Shown: positions 98 through 16,884 of the stretch, piece by piece
Position numbering within the stretch: the first letter of the stretch is position 1
Layout of the letters: each line of letters opens with the position of its first letter
Virus record (IMG/VR): IMGVR_UViG_3300025141_008079
Span: 1 to 23,198 of that record
Reading direction: 5' to 3' (one strand)
DNA: 23,198 nucleotides
Source: a virus
The notes under the pieces: model-generated
What the model saw: only the letters and a program-made list of their open reading frames with translations
The model's database searches: none
What the model was told of the DNA's origin: nothing
Translations under genes and position numbers: made by a program

Positions 98-370
98 GCC
101 TTTATTTCCGAAAAGTTTATTTTTTTCCGCATCGCTCATCTCCACCTCTTTTAACTCCCCCACTTGAGAAGAATAGTTAAAGACCCGGAAATCTGCTTGA
201 TCTAAATCCCACACCAACTCCATGCCAGAGGGCATTGAGCGGTCTTTGGCAGTATCCTTAATTTTACTTTCCAAAAAAGTATCTGGTACATCGTCCAACT
301 TGACGAAGGTCATATGTCTCAGATCATTGTTTTTCTTGCGGAACATGCCCGCATATATTTTACTCATCAT
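86..370 (-). CDS. Small WYL_2/SH3-like protein of unknown function
   Basis: A 94-aa protein. The pattern of a basic strand (FRKKNNDLRHMTF), a loop, then GMELVWDLDQADFRVFNY resembles the Sm-like SH3 beta-barrel family listed as WYL_2 (DUF2693), which is common in phages. The T4-type members have no established biochemical role. The start is one of two adjacent ATGs (370 or 367). AAGGAG lies 5 to 8 bases upstream, and the start overlaps the stop of the tubulin-like gene, so the two are probably translationally coupled. The 3' end contains the -35 box of the promoter for the next gene. Family placement rests on pattern recognition only. Confidence 0.7.
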   Translation of the reverse strand: MMSKIYAGMFRKKNNDLRHMTFVKLDDVPDTFLESKIKDTAKDRSMPSGMELVWDLDQADFRVFNYSSQVGELKEVEMSDAEKNKLFGNKGLTP

Positions 371-1205
371 AATTTACTCCTTGTATGATTTTTGTGTTAG
401 CCAAAATATAAATATAATTTTGCTCGTATGAGGTTGGATATACTCCAAACCCCACTTTAATAGTTAAATCTTCTTCCCTCGCTCTCCGCTTGAGATTAGA
501 CAATAGTTCAGGATCCTCATCCAGTTGCTTTTGGTTTATAGCGAAATAATATTCTTTCTCGCTAATATAGTTAAGAGGAAAAAACATCTGGTCTGTTATA
601 TTATCCAGTGCACCGATGCCGAGGGTAGAAATGCGCGCTGTCTCGCTACCCTCGCTCAAACTCGATAAAGAGGGCGACGAATTCTTACACACATTAAACA
701 TGTGAAAGGTAGAAGAAATTATTTCGTTTACCTTTTCATAATAAGAAGAAACAGGAATTTGTCCCACCACCTTCTCTATTTCACTGTTTGAAACAATAAA
801 CAATCGCCGCAGAATGCCCGAGCGTGCATACTCTTGCAAGACATTAAATACGGCGTTATCTAGCGTGGTTGCGTGCTTGGTTAAAAACGATACGTCAGGG
901 CGTATAAGTAGCACTTCCATCTTATTGTGCTGGAGAGCCTCCATCACTCGCAACGTGCATGAGGAAATAGAACCGCCCCCTGCCACAATCAACAGGACAT
1001 CGCCGCGTATCTTTTTTAAATCTGAAAAAACCTTCGGGGAAAATTTTTCTTCGTATTCCTCCGTAGAGGATCGTTGAGTTATGGGGAAAATGCCCTTACC
1101 CTTCTTTAATCCTACATCCATTTTATAGATGGTATACTGAGGGTACTGGGATAGAGAGTCTGCAATCTTACATCCTGCATGCCCAATGCCAATAACATTA
1201 ATCAT
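360..1205 (-). CDS. Divergent tubulin/FtsZ-superfamily protein
   Basis: This 281-aa protein has the layout of an FtsZ/tubulin GTPase domain. It begins with a strand and glycine loop (NVIGIGHAGCKIA, residues 3-15), like the FtsZ T1 loop. Strand VLLIVAGGG then leads into SISSCTLRVMEAL (70-90), in the place of the tubulin signature GGGTGSG but degenerate. Next comes EVLLIRPDVSF (97-107), then a helix, then RRLFIVSNSEIEKVVG (133-148), matching the FtsZ 'LIVIPNDRLLEVV' strand. A helix like the FtsZ core helix and the strand RISTLGIGA (191-199) follow. The T7 loop has no recognisable NxDxxD, so the usual synergy-loop aspartates appear missing, and the C-terminal domain is short. The gene overlaps MazG by 8 bases and the 94-aa gene by 11. 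A non-tubulin Rossmann-like fold is the alternative. I would not claim filament formation or GTP hydrolysis. Confidence 0.62.
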   Translation of the reverse strand: MINVIGIGHAGCKIADSLSQYPQYTIYKMDVGLKKGKGIFPITQRSSTEEYEEKFSPKVFSDLKKIRGDVLLIVAGGGSISSCTLRVMEALQHNKMEVLLIRPDVSFLTKHATTLDNAVFNVLQEYARSGILRRLFIVSNSEIEKVVGQIPVSSYYEKVNEIISSTFHMFNVCKNSSPSLSSLSEGSETARISTLGIGALDNITDQMFFPLNYISEKEYYFAINQKQLDEDPELLSNLKRRAREEDLTIKVGFGVYPTSYEQNYIYILANTKIIQGVNYDE

Positions 1206-1512: not shown

Positions 1513-2717
1513 ACTTCAATCTCCTTCATGCTACCAAAATCTTTTCCCACTCTCACTCCAACCCTATACTCTCCGAATCGGGTGGACGCAAAGACGTTTT
1601 TGATCTCCGGTATATTATATCGTGCTTCGGCGGGAATGTCAAGCACAAAACTGTCGTGAATCAAAAAAACTATTTTAGAGGCGTCATTGCCCAGAAATTT
1701 CAAGAATTCTTGCACCGCGAGTACCTTTTCGAGCACCAAATCACTGGTAGTGCTTTGAATGAGGTAGTTCAAAGCGTAATGTTCTCCCGCTTCTATCTCT
1801 CTCCCAAAAGGAGTTCGAACCCTAGTACCATCCCAATACTTAGACAATACTTTATCCCGATCATATGTATCGTTTAATAATTCATCCTTTGATTGAGGAT
1901 TATATAGCCACGCAAAGATTCTTTTCTTTGCTGCTTCTCTGGTGCACCCGTCTTTGAAGAGGTGGCGGATATTCCACTCATGAATGTCCTCCGTCGGTTG
2001 CTTCACCTGCATCGTGCCCAGAAGCGTACGCAACTCAGCCGCGTTATAATCAAACTCGACAAAAAAATCATTAGTCGGCTTTAAAACCTTTCTAAAATTT
2101 TTGGGAAGATTGAGGATAGGAAAACTATTTTTCTCGAGCGTCAAACGGCCCGTTACCGATCCAAACTGATTGTAACTTAGAGTATTTTTAACTCCACTCA
2201 ACTTCTTCAAATTCTGCCTCACTACCAATGAAGAGAGGTGGTTGTTCATGACACTTAAATCTATACTTAAAGGGGAGTCCCTTATTTCACCAAATAATTT
2301 TTCTAATTTCAATGCTTTATTATAGTTATGTGGTTTAGGCAGATTATCAAAACACCACTCAACGATGTCGCATTTAACCTGGGAATATTCTCTTAGAAAC
2401 CATCCGGGAATAAGGTCGTTAGTGCATACCTGTGTGAGATCTACTTTAGATACCAGCAGTGCATTTTGAAATGCTACCTTGCGCTCCTGAAGTTTATCCC
2501 ACTCTTCGCGGAGATGATCGGGACACGCTTCACTCAGCGATTTCCCTTGAGCATATAACTGCATATACTCAGTTCCTTCCTCGTGGAAGTAGGGATTATA
2601 GTCCCATGTAATGAACTGGTCTTGTGTTTTTTGCTCTTTAATTTCCCCGTTGTAATAATATCCTAGACACTCTTTTTTTGAATCCAATACTGTAAAAACA
2701 TTATTCATCATACTCAC
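1509..2717 (-). CDS. Short family A DNA polymerase (no exonuclease domain)
   Basis: A 402-aa protein with the palm and fingers motifs of Pol I-type polymerases. There is a region like GRLSS...NLQNIP (190-205, GRLTLEKN...ILNLP). Motif A is EFDYNAAELR with catalytic D223. The O-helix has the full RxxxKxxxFxxxY pattern (R260, K264, F268, Y272). NYLIQSTTSDL (317-327) follows, and motif C is IHDS with D355, where the family usually has HDE. Known family A enzymes carry a 3'-5' exonuclease of about 200 residues before this core. Here the N-terminal part is too short and shows no DxE exonuclease motif, so proofreading would need a separate gene. The listed start is GTG; ATGs at 2711 and 2708 are equally possible and no clear ribosome site separates them. 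The 5' end overlaps the upstream gene by 17 bases. Confidence 0.85.
   Translation of the reverse strand: MSMMNNVFTVLDSKKECLGYYYNGEIKEQKTQDQFITWDYNPYFHEEGTEYMQLYAQGKSLSEACPDHLREEWDKLQERKVAFQNALLVSKVDLTQVCTNDLIPGWFLREYSQVKCDIVEWCFDNLPKPHNYNKALKLEKLFGEIRDSPLSIDLSVMNNHLSSLVVRQNLKKLSGVKNTLSYNQFGSVTGRLTLEKNSFPILNLPKNFRKVLKPTNDFFVEFDYNAAELRTLLGTMQVKQPTEDIHEWNIRHLFKDGCTREAAKKRIFAWLYNPQSKDELLNDTYDRDKVLSKYWDGTRVRTPFGREIEAGEHYALNYLIQSTTSDLVLEKVLAVQEFLKFLGNDASKIVFLIHDSFVLDIPAEARYNIPEIKNVFASTRFGEYRVGVRVGKDFGSMKEIEV
1614..1642 (-). promoter_or_regulatory. Perfect sigma-70 promoter inside the polymerase gene
   Basis: On the minus strand TTGACA (1642-1637) and TATAAT (1619-1614) are exactly 17 bases apart, within the polymerase coding sequence (codons for LDIPAEARYNI). 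Transcription should start near 1607 and read the MazG gene, whose ATG is at 1512, and then the tubulin-like gene. Confidence 0.9.
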
Positions 2718-3927
2718 GATATCTTTGCTTTCTCTGGAATCTAAAATTTCCCCTTCGCGTCTTTACGGAAGGATCGGGTACGGCGATTCTCATCTCTTGG
2801 TTGATATATTTAAACGCCGCCGTCTCAGTAGAGTGCGTCAAGAAATCACTCGCTCGTTGCACCACATGATCAAACTTATATTGATCCCAGTCTTGATTTG
2901 TTTCCTTTGCTCGTATATATACACAGAGTCGAATCCAAAAAAGGTTGTCATACCTTTCTTCATACTCTGCCCACTCCATTATAGCACGCGGAATTTCCTT
3001 TGTCAAGCTAAATGATTTGGACTTTATAGTACGTACCACGGGAATGCGTACTTTAGGATAATCACGTACAAAGGAACGATAGTATTGGAATAAATAAGAT
3101 TTCATTGTAGGAATATCTAATAAGTGAGTGCGATAGTACCTTTTTGCAAAAAGATCGTCCACTCCTCCTATGTCGTTGGCGGCTAAGTGTGGTGCCATGG
3201 CCGGTGAACCGGGGACAGCAACTAACCGCCAGGGTGCATTCTTATCGAGAGCAAATCCATTCTGTTTGGCAACTGCCCTGAAGACTTCGAAATTACGATC
3301 ATTAATAAAACGACTTATTTTCACATAATCGTTCCCATGATCATAGTCCCCACATTCTATTACCAATCCACTCACGAGTGGTGAAGAGTACTTGCTCTTT
3401 ACAAATCCAGTTTTAGTGAAAGGAATTAAAAGTGTTACTCTCTCTATTAATCTAGTAAATGCGTCAATAAAATCATCAAAATCTACAATATCCTTAGACA
3501 CCGCAGGGGTCATCAGATAAGGCACCACATTAGTATTATAGAACCTATTAATATGGTTTCCATAATCAGCGTTGACGCTCATCCATCCCTGAAGGGGCAC
3601 AAAAACTTTCTGGTAGGGAGAAGTATCGGACACGGGAAAGTTACCTTCTGCTGTTTCCGCATGAAGCGCGTTTACAAAACTCGCATAGGCATCTGCTACA
3701 AAATCTACCACAAAAACATCGGGGGTACCAGGAATCTGCTTCAGATGTGCTTGATTGGGATAGATTGTATCGCCCTGAGTATTAATCTTGCCGTAGTTTC
3801 CTTCCCCATACCAGAAATCAATCTTGCGATAATGCTCTATCCCCGGTGGATAATTCTTTATGTATTGGCTGCGCTGTTCAAAAGAAGAACTGGCTAATAA
3901 ATTATTCGACCCAAAACTAACTTTCAC
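2701..3927 (-). CDS. Unknown protein at the end of the baseplate operon
   Basis: A 408-aa soluble protein with no signal peptide or membrane segment. I recognise the pattern (DFWYGEGNYGKIN, then a 'YPN...LKQIP' turn, then VFVVDFVADAYASF, then VFVPLQGW) from proteins coded beside baseplate genes in marine T4-like phages, but no function is established that I can name. The C-terminus is very basic (KTRRGNFRFQRKQRYREYDE). The start is GTG at 3927 with AGGAG 9 bases upstream. That ribosome site overlaps the stop of the 955-aa gene, so the two are probably coupled. A structural or tail-assembly role is inferred from position only. The gene also hosts the promoter for the polymerase. Confidence 0.75.
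   Translation of the reverse strand: MKVSFGSNNLLASSSFEQRSQYIKNYPPGIEHYRKIDFWYGEGNYGKINTQGDTIYPNQAHLKQIPGTPDVFVVDFVADAYASFVNALHAETAEGNFPVSDTSPYQKVFVPLQGWMSVNADYGNHINRFYNTNVVPYLMTPAVSKDIVDFDDFIDAFTRLIERVTLLIPFTKTGFVKSKYSSPLVSGLVIECGDYDHGNDYVKISRFINDRNFEVFRAVAKQNGFALDKNAPWRLVAVPGSPAMAPHLAANDIGGVDDLFAKRYYRTHLLDIPTMKSYLFQYYRSFVRDYPKVRIPVVRTIKSKSFSLTKEIPRAIMEWAEYEERYDNLFWIRLCVYIRAKETNQDWDQYKFDHVVQRASDFLTHSTETAAFKYINQEMRIAVPDPSVKTRRGNFRFQRKQRYREYDE
2978..3006 (-). promoter_or_regulatory. Perfect sigma-70 promoter inside the 408-aa gene
   Basis: On the minus strand TTGACA (3006-3001) and TATAAT (2983-2978) are exactly 17 bases apart, with TGC before the -10. It lies within codons for LTKEIPRAIM of the upstream tail-region gene. 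A start near 2971 would give the DNA polymerase gene a leader of about 250 nt. Twelve bases around its -10 (GTGCTATAATGG) are identical to those of the promoter at 69-97. Confidence 0.92.
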
Positions 3928-14019: not shown

Positions 14020-16884
14020 TTAATCATCAAAAGATGCTCCAGATCGTGTTACCACGAAATCCAGTGCAATAAACTCAATCGCCCTCGCAGGTTTCAAGAA
14101 AATCTTGGCATACATGATATTTCTATCAACCAACTCAGGGGTAGTAGTCGTATCATCAAGAAGAACCTTATAGTCAGTTAACCCTAGTCGAGTTTTAACA
14201 CTCCCCAAAAATGGATTGACTTGACTCAAGAATCTATTCCACGTAGTTTGGACATTTTGATCAAAAAGCAGGCGTGCCGCAATTCTAGAAATCTCTCTCT
14301 TAACAAAAATCAACATCCTACGGACGTTAATACGATCCAGTGCTGACCGTGTTACCTGGAGAGTTTTTTGTCCAAAAATCACAATTCCTTCTGCGGGAAA
14401 TTGAGCAATTGGATTAACATTTGCTGTATAAAGGTCGTCTCGTTCTTCCGAAGTTAGACGTTGACGGACATTGCTCACTGGCAACCCCGCACTACCCTCT
14501 GTTAGTCCGCCTCGCGTAAATCCGGCAGGAGCGAACCACAGTTCACTTGCTGCTTCGCTACTTGCTAACGTACCCAAAGCAACCACACTTGGGGGAACCC
14601 ATAAAGATCCACCCGTTGTCACCGTATCCACAACTTGGCACCATGGATAATAAGCGCATCCATAACTATTGTTAAGTGACCGTTGATCTAACTGACTAAT
14701 CGTGTCGGAAACACTTCCCAATCGTAGTTTCGCGCTTTCAGTAGACTCGGTTTCAGGACGATATCCGCCCGCTAAATCAATAATAGCTAACGAGTCCGCA
14801 CGTGCATCGCAAATATTTAGAAGTTTATCAGTCAAACTTACGGTCGTAAGACCGGGCATTGTCATCATATTACATTCTACCACTTCTGGGTCGCGCACAG
14901 CATCCATTGCTCTTTCAATTGAAGCATACGAATACTGACTTGCGGCAGTTGTGCCACCGGGCATCAAACTATTTCGGAAGGGTTCTCGCTCAATAATGTT
15001 AAGTCCTTCAAACCCCGCATTAAGAACGGTAGTAAACTTATTAAATCCTTCATCAAGAACTGATTTATAATCACCAAGTGCCGTAAAGGAATCACCGTCA
15101 AGACGAGATCCTGATACCCACGTAGCGAGGGCGCCATCGGTGCCTGCCTTGACATCATCCAGAGAGAACACCCAAGAGTATTCAAGCAACTCGGCGCCAG
15201 TTGCACCGACAGTTTCGTCATCCAAGTTAGCTGGTTTTCTGCGTACCAAGTCTACAAGAGATGGTTCTACTCGATTGCTAGTTGCCATATTGGTAGTTGC
15301 TCCAAAACAAGCATTCTTTTGATTCGTTATAATTCCTTCATTACTATCCGTTCTTGTGGGAACTTCTGGGAAGTTGAAAGAAGCAGTGAGGAGTTCTGTC
15401 TTCTCCCCCGAGAAAACCAAATCTCCAAATGCAGTCGACAATGAATCCGGCAAATTAACACCGCCTAGCACATAGCGATGTGCCAGATCGTCTGATCCAC
15501 TATAAGGTCGTGGACCCGAAGATGCGCTCATCGCACTAAACCCGCTGAAACGCGAAGGTCCGAAGACTCCAAATGGAAGTGATTTCGGATCAATAACGGC
15601 ACTATCTACCGCCGAATTTAATTCAACACGAATATATCTCGATTGGTTATTATAATTTCCGTATGATTGGTACAGATTTTTAAGGGGCGCCCACGTAGTA
15701 TACATATCGCCTATTCTACGAGCAATATAATTAGGAGAATTAGGATTCAAATCCACATCAGCGTAAGTTTCAACAGGACGTATAGCACTATCGCTATCAC
15801 CTATATCCCGAAGACGCACAGTAAAGGTGCCGTAAGGTACATTCTCATTTGGAGACGCTTTAATGTCTGTAATGGAAATTTTCAAATTAGATTGGGGCCA
15901 CTCTCCATTATCTAATCCCACAAACCTAAACAACTTGGTCATGTCGGCTGGATCATAAAGACTGCTCGTTCCAAAATCTTGTGAGAAGAACCACCCAGTT
16001 TCAGGGTTGCTTAATTGCATTCGTTGCTGGTGTTGGGCAACAAGAGTAGCACCAGATCCACTGGTCAGCCCTAAAATCACGGCAGACGAAGAAACGGATC
16101 CAACTGCGTCAGTCAGCGCTCTACCAAAAGTCTCGCCCAAGAAGTAGGTTTTTTCAACTTCGTTAGAATTCATATCTGCATTCAGCAGAGTGGGATTGGT
16201 ATTAAAAACATTACGGATAAACTGCTTACTGTTCTCGTTAAAGTTAAAAACAACTTTCTCAACAACATCGTCATGGGCTGTGCCCTTCACTAGAAGAGTA
16301 TATTCGTTATTGCTTCCTTGTTGCTTGAACAACCCACAAGTACCAGATTGATTTTCAGTGCCGTCGACCAAAGTGCCGCTCAAGGAAACTACGCCCGACT
16401 TGCAGTAAAAGATGGCACTTAAAACACCATCCTTCTGATCGCCGGTACCACTAGGTATCATGAAAAGTCCGAAGGCGCCGCCGGTATCATAAGCAGTACT
16501 GATTTCTGAACCAGTAGTCTGCCATCCAGCGCGTCCATTTCCGGTGCTCAGTGCATTCTCGTCTTCAATCCCGCCAAGTCGAACAAAAATTGCTGGACTC
16601 TTATTGCGCAAATAGGCTTGCGCGGCATACGTGGCATAGGCTGGGGCGGACACGTTGGGTCCGAATCGCCATGCATCAGGCGAACCTCCACCGAAAATGG
16701 GATCTCCAAAGGTTTCTACAAAATCCGAGAAAGAATTAACTTGAATTGGCCTTAGAGTCGGTCCCTTCAAAGAGCGACCAATAATGACAGGACCAACACC
16801 TCTTGGCAGTTCCGGCAACTGGGAGTTATCTATCTCTTCAACGAAGACTCCAGGGGATACAAACTTAAATTTATCAACTGACAT
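14020..16884 (-). CDS. Tail sheath protein (gp18-like)
   Basis: A 954-aa contractile sheath subunit. The N-terminus is diagnostic: SPGVFVEEID (residues about 10-19), GPVIIGRSLKGPT, FVETFGDP. The C-terminal domain carries NPIAQFPAEGIVIFGQKTLQ, then LDRINVRRMLIFVKREI and ARLLFDQNVQTTWNRFL, the conserved sheath core that interlocks subunits. It is about 300 residues longer than T4 gp18 (659 aa). The excess is in the middle, where sheath proteins carry surface domains of variable size. The ATG has AAGGAG 11 bases upstream. The 117-base gap before it holds a candidate late motif but no gene. Its size predicts a bulky sheath surface and perhaps decoration domains. Confidence 0.95.
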   Translation of the reverse strand: MSVDKFKFVSPGVFVEEIDNSQLPELPRGVGPVIIGRSLKGPTLRPIQVNSFSDFVETFGDPIFGGGSPDAWRFGPNVSAPAYATYAAQAYLRNKSPAIFVRLGGIEDENALSTGNGRAGWQTTGSEISTAYDTGGAFGLFMIPSGTGDQKDGVLSAIFYCKSGVVSLSGTLVDGTENQSGTCGLFKQQGSNNEYTLLVKGTAHDDVVEKVVFNFNENSKQFIRNVFNTNPTLLNADMNSNEVEKTYFLGETFGRALTDAVGSVSSSAVILGLTSGSGATLVAQHQQRMQLSNPETGWFFSQDFGTSSLYDPADMTKLFRFVGLDNGEWPQSNLKISITDIKASPNENVPYGTFTVRLRDIGDSDSAIRPVETYADVDLNPNSPNYIARRIGDMYTTWAPLKNLYQSYGNYNNQSRYIRVELNSAVDSAVIDPKSLPFGVFGPSRFSGFSAMSASSGPRPYSGSDDLAHRYVLGGVNLPDSLSTAFGDLVFSGEKTELLTASFNFPEVPTRTDSNEGIITNQKNACFGATTNMATSNRVEPSLVDLVRRKPANLDDETVGATGAELLEYSWVFSLDDVKAGTDGALATWVSGSRLDGDSFTALGDYKSVLDEGFNKFTTVLNAGFEGLNIIEREPFRNSLMPGGTTAASQYSYASIERAMDAVRDPEVVECNMMTMPGLTTVSLTDKLLNICDARADSLAIIDLAGGYRPETESTESAKLRLGSVSDTISQLDQRSLNNSYGCAYYPWCQVVDTVTTGGSLWVPPSVVALGTLASSEAASELWFAPAGFTRGGLTEGSAGLPVSNVRQRLTSEERDDLYTANVNPIAQFPAEGIVIFGQKTLQVTRSALDRINVRRMLIFVKREISRIAARLLFDQNVQTTWNRFLSQVNPFLGSVKTRLGLTDYKVLLDDTTTTPELVDRNIMYAKIFLKPARAIEFIALDFVVTRSGASFDD

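Follow-up and report, generated by a model that had tools for sequence, protein, structure and literature searches.

The protein described here, TUB, is encoded in an uncultured phage and represents a new and apparently non-catalytic family of the tubulin superfamily, a constant component of the replication cassette in Far-T4-like phages. Its function is a matter of inference. The reading that fits best, to which we assign a probability of about 0.45, is that TUB binds a guanine nucleotide without hydrolysing it and acts as an accessory in phage DNA replication, because the nucleotide pocket is mostly kept, the catalytic and longitudinal-contact elements are gone, and the gene occupies a constant place in a single copy. 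The window, by which we mean the whole stretch of DNA analysed, is an entire IMG/VR virus record of 23,198 bases, and its long ORFs lie on the minus strand. TUB corresponds to a 281-amino-acid ORF with an ATG start that sits exactly at positions 360-1205 (-). Along the protein the motifs IGIGHAG (residues 5-11), AGGGSISS (75-82), RPDVSF (102-107) and LFIVSNSEIEKVV (135-147) follow one another in the order that a preliminary description of this DNA had recognized as that of the FtsZ core.

The low end of the window is part of a replication cassette, all on the minus strand. It encodes a 408-amino-acid protein (N408; 2701-3927) recognized by synteny in relatives, a family A DNA polymerase of 402 amino acids (polA; 1509-2717; PF00476, E 4.4e-11; phrog_17, E 3e-16), a MazG-like protein of 104 amino acids (1198-1512; PF01503, E 0.0014), TUB itself and a 94-amino-acid protein (86-370). 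N408, directly 5' of polA, has no Pfam match over cut-off and no PHROG match. TUB overlaps the MazG-like gene by 8 nt and the 94-amino-acid gene by 11 nt. The MazG assignment in the window is weak, since its PF01503 score of 19.4 bits lies under the Pfam cut-off of 21.3. The 94-amino-acid protein of the window has no Pfam match; its family is weakly like WYL_2 (an Sm-like SH3 barrel), with PF10902 found at E 2e-4 and 0.0057 in two of the four relatives scanned, both under the Pfam cut-off. Thus the replication cassette and the polymerase named in the preliminary description stand and its MazG is only weakly assigned, while the single-stranded DNA-binding protein (SSB) that it suspected is not in the window, where the next gene is the 94-amino-acid one; in relatives, a gp32-like SSB follows that gene. 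The virion genes of the window are of T4 type by PHROG, as had been claimed for the phage: major head protein (phrog_138, E 1.7e-70), tail sheath (phrog_23, E 1.6e-65) and baseplate hub (phrog_150, E 1.9e-18). The tail sheath gene (14020-16884) encodes 954 amino acids, and its top two PHROG matches are sheath families with profiles 496 and 915 positions long.

From the predicted structures it is near certain that TUB adopts the tubulin/FtsZ fold along its entire length. The window protein, modelled by AlphaFold2 on an alignment of 76 sequences (77 were selected and L080 was omitted), reaches a pLDDT of 95.3 and a pTM of 0.92. The best Foldseek match in the PDB is an FtsZ (E 2.6e-13), and the 50 matches listed are all FtsZ or TubZ. 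By VIA-align 2 the model matches CetZ (3zid_B) at Z 24.8 (256 residues, 3.1 A), FtsZ at Z 23.3 (270 residues, 3.7 A), TubZ at Z 22.5 (271 residues, 3.3 A) and eukaryotic tubulins at Z 21.4-21.7, with residues 1-281 of the model spanned. A second member, L063, is 32% identical to the window protein; modelled on the same sequence set, it has a pLDDT of 92.1 and again the tubulin/FtsZ fold, with VIA-align Z scores of 24.0 for CetZ, 22.8 for TubZ and 22.1 for FtsZ. CetZ is an archaeal tubulin-like protein with intact GTPase loops that forms polymers and has a role in cell shape. It ranks first for both models, within about 3 of FtsZ and TubZ, and from a lead of little over one unit we claim no nearest kinship. 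All matches listed, 50 for each of the two models, are by title FtsZ, CetZ, TubZ or tubulin, alone or in complexes.

Both models show the two-domain architecture of a Rossmann-type nucleotide domain and a C-terminal activation domain, with a long core helix H7 of 23-24 residues. In the window protein H7 covers residues 152-174 (684-752, -) and the activation-like domain residues 192-281 (363-632, -). Confident models of two members at 32% identity bear out the preliminary claim of a tubulin/FtsZ-like protein, the Rossmann core and H7-like helix being in place and the listed matches all falling in the tubulin superfamily. A structure search of a viral library (BFVD) gives seven matches with E no higher than 0.001, led by A0A6J5RW92 ('FtsZ Cell division GTPase'), a protein of 452 amino acids from an uncultured Caudovirales phage, with a TM score of 0.80 by query length and 12% identity; three others are labelled cell-division or tubulin-like.

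Profile comparison indicates that the kinship of TUB with the tubulin/FtsZ superfamily goes beyond the fold, to the level of sequence. Aligned by hhalign with 11 FtsZ sequences, the TUB family scores 32.35 over 289 columns (probability 71.6%, P 4.4e-6), against a mean of 3.1 (s.d. 2.5, maximum 8.96) for 100 column-shuffled FtsZ alignments and 7.5 for the reversed alignment. With five PhuZ sequences the score is 23.2, the shuffle maximum 8.9 and the reversed score 11.9, so that in this comparison, which had been proposed as a check, both FtsZ and PhuZ lie over their shuffle maxima. Ordinary sequence searches are weak, which would explain why the family lacks annotation. In a scan of 76 members, Pfam Tubulin is found in four (best E 0.011), and TIGR00065 (FtsZ), the NCBIfam model matching most members, in 16 (best E 0.0024); PF00091, the Pfam tubulin model, has no match in any of six large records carrying TUB. 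Searched against PDB sequences, the family profile ranks a putative saccharopine dehydrogenase (E 0.24) ahead of FtsZ (E 1.4). Five weak PHROG matches of no stated function occur among the members, the best being phrog_30047 (5/76, E 1.1e-4), and the window protein alone has no PHROG match and no PDB sequence match. Candidate identities of the window protein as DUF4443 (Pfam E 0.007) or saccharopine dehydrogenase (E 0.14) are both under cut-off. Rossmann and short-motif identities among members (TrkA_N 27/76, Sacchrp_dh_NADP 21/76, DEAD 16/76) were dropped as generic because the full-length fold and all 50 matches listed per model belong to the tubulin superfamily.

The motifs on the nucleotide side of TUB are widely kept. 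The T1-like glycine loop, GIGHAGCKI at residues 6-14 (1164-1190, -), aligns with T1 of FtsZ and takes the form GxGxAGCxI in the family; among 157 unique members G6 is kept in 155, G8 in 157 and G11 in 151. In the profile alignment N140 (786-788, -) falls on the asparagine of the FtsZ T6 motif 'PND', and Y156-xxx-N160 of H7 falls on F-xxx-[D/N] of FtsZ (F..A[DN]). N140 and N160 are kept in the same 148 of the 157 sequences, and tyrosine or phenylalanine at 156 accompanies N160 in 129. H7 residues of FtsZ belong to the guanine side of the pocket. T6 of FtsZ also takes part in guanine binding, as described in PMC8936486. Nine members, including L031, L034, L056 and L089, have neither asparagine, and position 79 of the T4 loop is variable (K in 75 of the 157, D in 22, others in the rest); the ligand may therefore be no triphosphate, or there may be none. 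A further motif, QEYxRSG, is specific to the family and was not seen in the FtsZ comparison. It reads QEYARSG at residues 124-130 of the window protein (816-836, -), at the C-terminal end of the post-S4 helix (residues 110-129 in the model), and Q124 and R128 are invariant (157/157), with S129 in 156.

The elements associated with catalysis and assembly in FtsZ show the opposite pattern. The altered T4 loop, AGGGSISS at residues 75-82 (960-983, -), is paired by hhalign at GGGSISS with the GGGTGTG of FtsZ, and the signature GGGTG[ST]G occurs in none of the 157 members versus 11 of 11 FtsZ; PhuZ, an accepted member of the superfamily, likewise has it in none of five. At the place of loop T7 and helix H8, residues 175-191 (633-683, -), the window protein has no NxDxxD and its model no helix. 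Neither NxDxxD nor the relaxed pattern [NQ]x[DE]xx[DE] is present in aligned residues 161-199 of any of the 157 members; allowed anywhere in the sequence, the relaxed pattern is found in 11 of 11 FtsZ and in only two of five PhuZ. Fourteen members carry an NxDxxD string elsewhere, at about residue 222, away from T7. The preliminary description was right on both points, the change of GGGTGSG to GGGSISS and the missing T7 loop. No H8 lies between H7 and S7 in either model, and conservation of the T7 region, 1.74 bits against a mean of 2.27, is the lowest of 20 structural elements save the C-terminal tail. The C-terminal linker and tail peptide of FtsZ are missing: the window protein stops 10 residues past its last strand (264-271), and no H11-like helix follows that strand in its model. 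The C-terminus of L063 has one four-residue helix, within a tail of pLDDT under 50, and in the six longest frames of the family the additional length is chiefly N-terminal. In FtsZ the two T7 aspartates act on the GTP of the neighbouring subunit, and N208L, D210N and D213N suppress assembly (PMC8936486). The sequence of TUB fits the preliminary suggestion of a non-hydrolysing or non-polymerising member.

Set beside FtsZ, the cell-division GTPase of bacteria and archaea, TUB shares the full-length fold, the T1 glycine loop, the T6 asparagine and the H7 [FY]xxx[ND] motif, and its profile is closer to FtsZ than to PhuZ. It differs in having no GGGTGTG, no T7 NxDxxD, no H8 in the two models and no C-terminal linker, in being only about 12% identical, and in being phage-encoded in a replication context. 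PhuZ and phage TubZ of phiKZ-like jumbo phages resemble TUB in their tubulin fold and in belonging to contractile-tailed phages; unlike TUB, PhuZ has H11, a C-terminal knuckle and protofilaments (PMC3678025). The phiKZ PhuZ gene is 7.7 kb off the annotated DNA polymerase, whereas among labelled genes TUB follows polA or, as in the window cassette, the MazG-like gene. Earlier families of the FtsZ superfamily, FtsZl1 and FtsZl2, were likewise recognized from sequence comparison (Makarova and Koonin 2010, PMC2875224); as described there both have GGGTG(S/T)G, are cellular and occur in other contexts, whereas TUB has no such loop.

The TUB family is large and apparently unannotated, and it belongs to uncultured phages that are common in IMG/VR. 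A direct search found one close relative. Loci were also considered through the neighbouring genes: complete or truncated at the contig end, a TUB homologue occurs in 33 of 35 loci fetched through the 94-amino-acid gene and in 77 of 80 fetched through polA (the best 80 of 121), or in 110 of 115 for the two sets together, several contigs being in both. For the five loci with no TUB (L016, L037, L092, L100 and L113), the contig stops 52, 342, 96, 293 and 58 nt, respectively, beyond the neighbour on the side of TUB, too close to accommodate the gene. Searching IMG/VR with a profile yielded at least 600 stretches, of which at least 597 are confirmed relatives. The viral loci assembled number 196, 191 of them with a TUB homologue; as IMG/VR records are fragments and loci overlap, some contigs appearing twice or more, locus counts do not stand for independent phages, and protein counts use unique sequences. 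Leaving out members under 245 amino acids reduced 160 proteins to 157 unique full-length ones, including that of the window, and 85 remain at under 70% identity. All 15 large records of the lineage (81-193 kb), two of them fetched only through the capsid gene, carry a single copy of TUB. Three queries against 50,697 phage records gave no TUB match, and the titles and abstract openings of part of the matching open-access papers describe no such family.

A chance ORF or assembly artefact is ruled out by the 157 unique full-length sequences with shared motifs and by a fold match far over background. A cellular gene was also considered and rejected: the sole relative in the genome_contigs scan (L198; CP070664.1) is a phage piece between runs of N, which we read as scaffolding contamination. 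That record is a 'candidate division WOR-3' MAG labelled as a chromosome, so a phage piece likely contaminates a public genome.

Among loci with TUB, the order of labelled genes is N408-polA-[MazG]-TUB-[94aa]-SSB-UvsX-[SLT]-exo-DnaB, truncated where contigs end and with a few variants towards the edges. In all patterns tallied TUB comes after polA, or after MazG where present, and before the 94-amino-acid gene or SSB. In one relative (L001) the SSB is gp32-like (PF08804, E 6e-13), UvsX resembles RecA and exo is a 5'-3' exonuclease; the DnaB label was given by eye. A lytic transglycosylase (SLT) gene lies between uvsX and the 5'-3' exonuclease gene in a few relatives, among them L001 (L001:3140-3616). 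Across the 196 loci MazG matches number 34 and matches to the 94-amino-acid gene 101, so both genes come and go. The spacing from MazG to TUB is -8 to +1 nt (24 pairs); between polA and TUB, 53 cases show -16 to +12 nt and another 40 a wider gap, of up to 2.5 kb. In L133 (779-1951, +) the MazG-like protein and TUB form a single 391-amino-acid frame, apparently because, compared with L136, a short stretch is deleted where the two genes meet.

By its capsid sequence the window phage is placed in the Far-T4 neighbourhood (PMC4360716). The nearest capsids among phage records are those of Microcystis phage Mel-JY01 (37% identity over 96% of the query), an uncultured 484-kb phage, the Flavobacterium immuto phages, Rhodothermus phage RM378 and an uncultured 595-kb phage; the major capsid proteins of Far-T4 phages (PMC4360716), RM378, immuto and Mel-JY01 are thus related to that of the window. 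Immuto and Mel-JY01 have a PolA-SSB-RecA-exonuclease-helicase cassette comparable to that of the TUB lineage. The TUB profile, which scores in 15 of 15 lineage records, has no match in Mel-JY01, RM378, immuto or the two huge uncultured phages, nor does PF00091 over cut-off, although PF00091 is weak as a test for TUB in other phages since it misses it in all six TUB-carrying records searched. In Mel-JY01 and immuto, none of the proteins encoded between PolA and SSB matches the TUB or the FtsZ profile (best hmmsearch E 0.076). After polA, Mel-JY01 (L300:3175-3564) and immuto (L118:1346-1801) have a short non-TUB protein alike in both (HRKKESNT[ML]YTIN). The 484-kb uncultured phage with a related capsid (W03; LR756508.1) has a sub-threshold PF00091 match (E 0.04) with one internal stop at 204913-205137.

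The Pfam models of the T4 sliding clamp (PF02916) and of a clamp loader (PF13177) have no match in 11 large records of the TUB lineage, while phage T4 gives E 2.9e-35 and 2.8e-7, respectively. PF02916 scores, weakly, in only one of 14 cellular genomes used as controls, which leaves T4 as the control that counts for it. RM378 and immuto, which have no TUB, also match neither model, and Mel-JY01 has a loader match and no clamp match. TUB is therefore no simple clamp substitute, and its replacing the sliding clamp is to be entertained as a possibility only.

We propose that a divergent tubulin/FtsZ member became a fixed part of the cassette in a T4-related lineage with a family A DNA polymerase. 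Judged from a few aligned pocket residues, TUB would still bind a guanine nucleotide. It would not hydrolyse it by the mechanism of FtsZ, in which each active site is completed by the T7 loop of the adjoining subunit, and it would form no dynamic protofilaments of the FtsZ type. Most likely it would serve as a nucleotide-bound switch or scaffold touching a replication protein, perhaps via the QEYxRSG patch, which by topology should face away from the nucleotide. A point against this replication-accessory reading is that position in a replication operon is no proof of a replication function. The more specific proposal that TUB is a replisome subunit, acting with bound guanine nucleotide as a clamp-like, tethering or assembly factor of the family A polymerase in phages with no detected T4-type clamp or loader, seems to us unlikely. 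A ligand-free structural scaffold with a tubulin fold would agree with the degenerate T4 loop, the variable position 79 and the nine members with neither pocket asparagine; the T1 glycines (151-157 of 157) and the T6 and H7 asparagines (148 of 157) are hard to explain without a ligand, and we hold such a scaffold to be distinctly improbable. We consider it very unlikely that TUB is a nucleotide-pool sensor paired with the adjacent MazG-like protein. The close spacing of the two genes in 24 pairs and the fused 391-amino-acid frame of L133 speak for such a pairing, but only 34 MazG matches occur over 196 viral loci, 191 of them with TUB, the window match is under the Pfam cut-off, and the fused frame is one in 157 and may be a deletion or assembly accident.

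Two further readings tie TUB to filaments. That it is a PhuZ- or TubZ-like filament with a changed interface, positioning or segregating replicating phage DNA, we regard as unlikely. The fold is the same, the T1 glycines are kept, and tubulins of jumbo phages do position or segregate DNA (PMC3678025, PMC4244570). PhuZ, moreover, polymerises although none of its five sequences has GGGTG[ST]G and only two have the relaxed T7, so that the loss of motifs alone is not decisive against filaments. However, the protofilament contact of phiKZ PhuZ is formed by loop T7, the base of H8 and S9 (PMC3678025), and TUB has neither the T7 aspartates nor H8; the window protein also has no C-terminal helix after S10. 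The partition system TubZRC has an adjacent TubR and an iterated centromere; no tubC-like iteron array was found in three regions searched, the labelled neighbours are replication genes, and the hhalign score with PhuZ (23.2, five sequences) is lower than with FtsZ (32.4, 11 sequences). Alternatively, TUB could inhibit host division as a mimic of an FtsZ subunit, its nucleotide-bound top face capping the exposed filament bottom and, having no T7, blocking growth; this appears quite unlikely. It would account for the retention of nucleotide-side motifs with loss of T7 and H8. Incoming FtsZ monomers are proposed to join the bottom end by their top surface, FtsZ mutations in the bottom interface are toxic (PMC8936486), and phages do block FtsZ, lambda Kil being an example (PMC3961180). 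At about 12% identity to FtsZ, however, co-assembly is doubtful. Host-takeover genes of phages are usually variable, and the place of TUB between polA and ssb, unlike that of typical genes of this kind, is constant.

The tubulin superfamily consists of cytoskeletal GTPases, and the phage members described in the open-access papers surveyed function in jumbo phages (PhuZ) or in partition of the plasmid kind (TubZ). In the phages studied here a cytoskeleton-type protein seems to have been put to another use, and as a replication accessory TUB would show that the tubulin fold can persist as a non-catalytic module with a different role. The TUB profile could annotate hundreds of genes or more.
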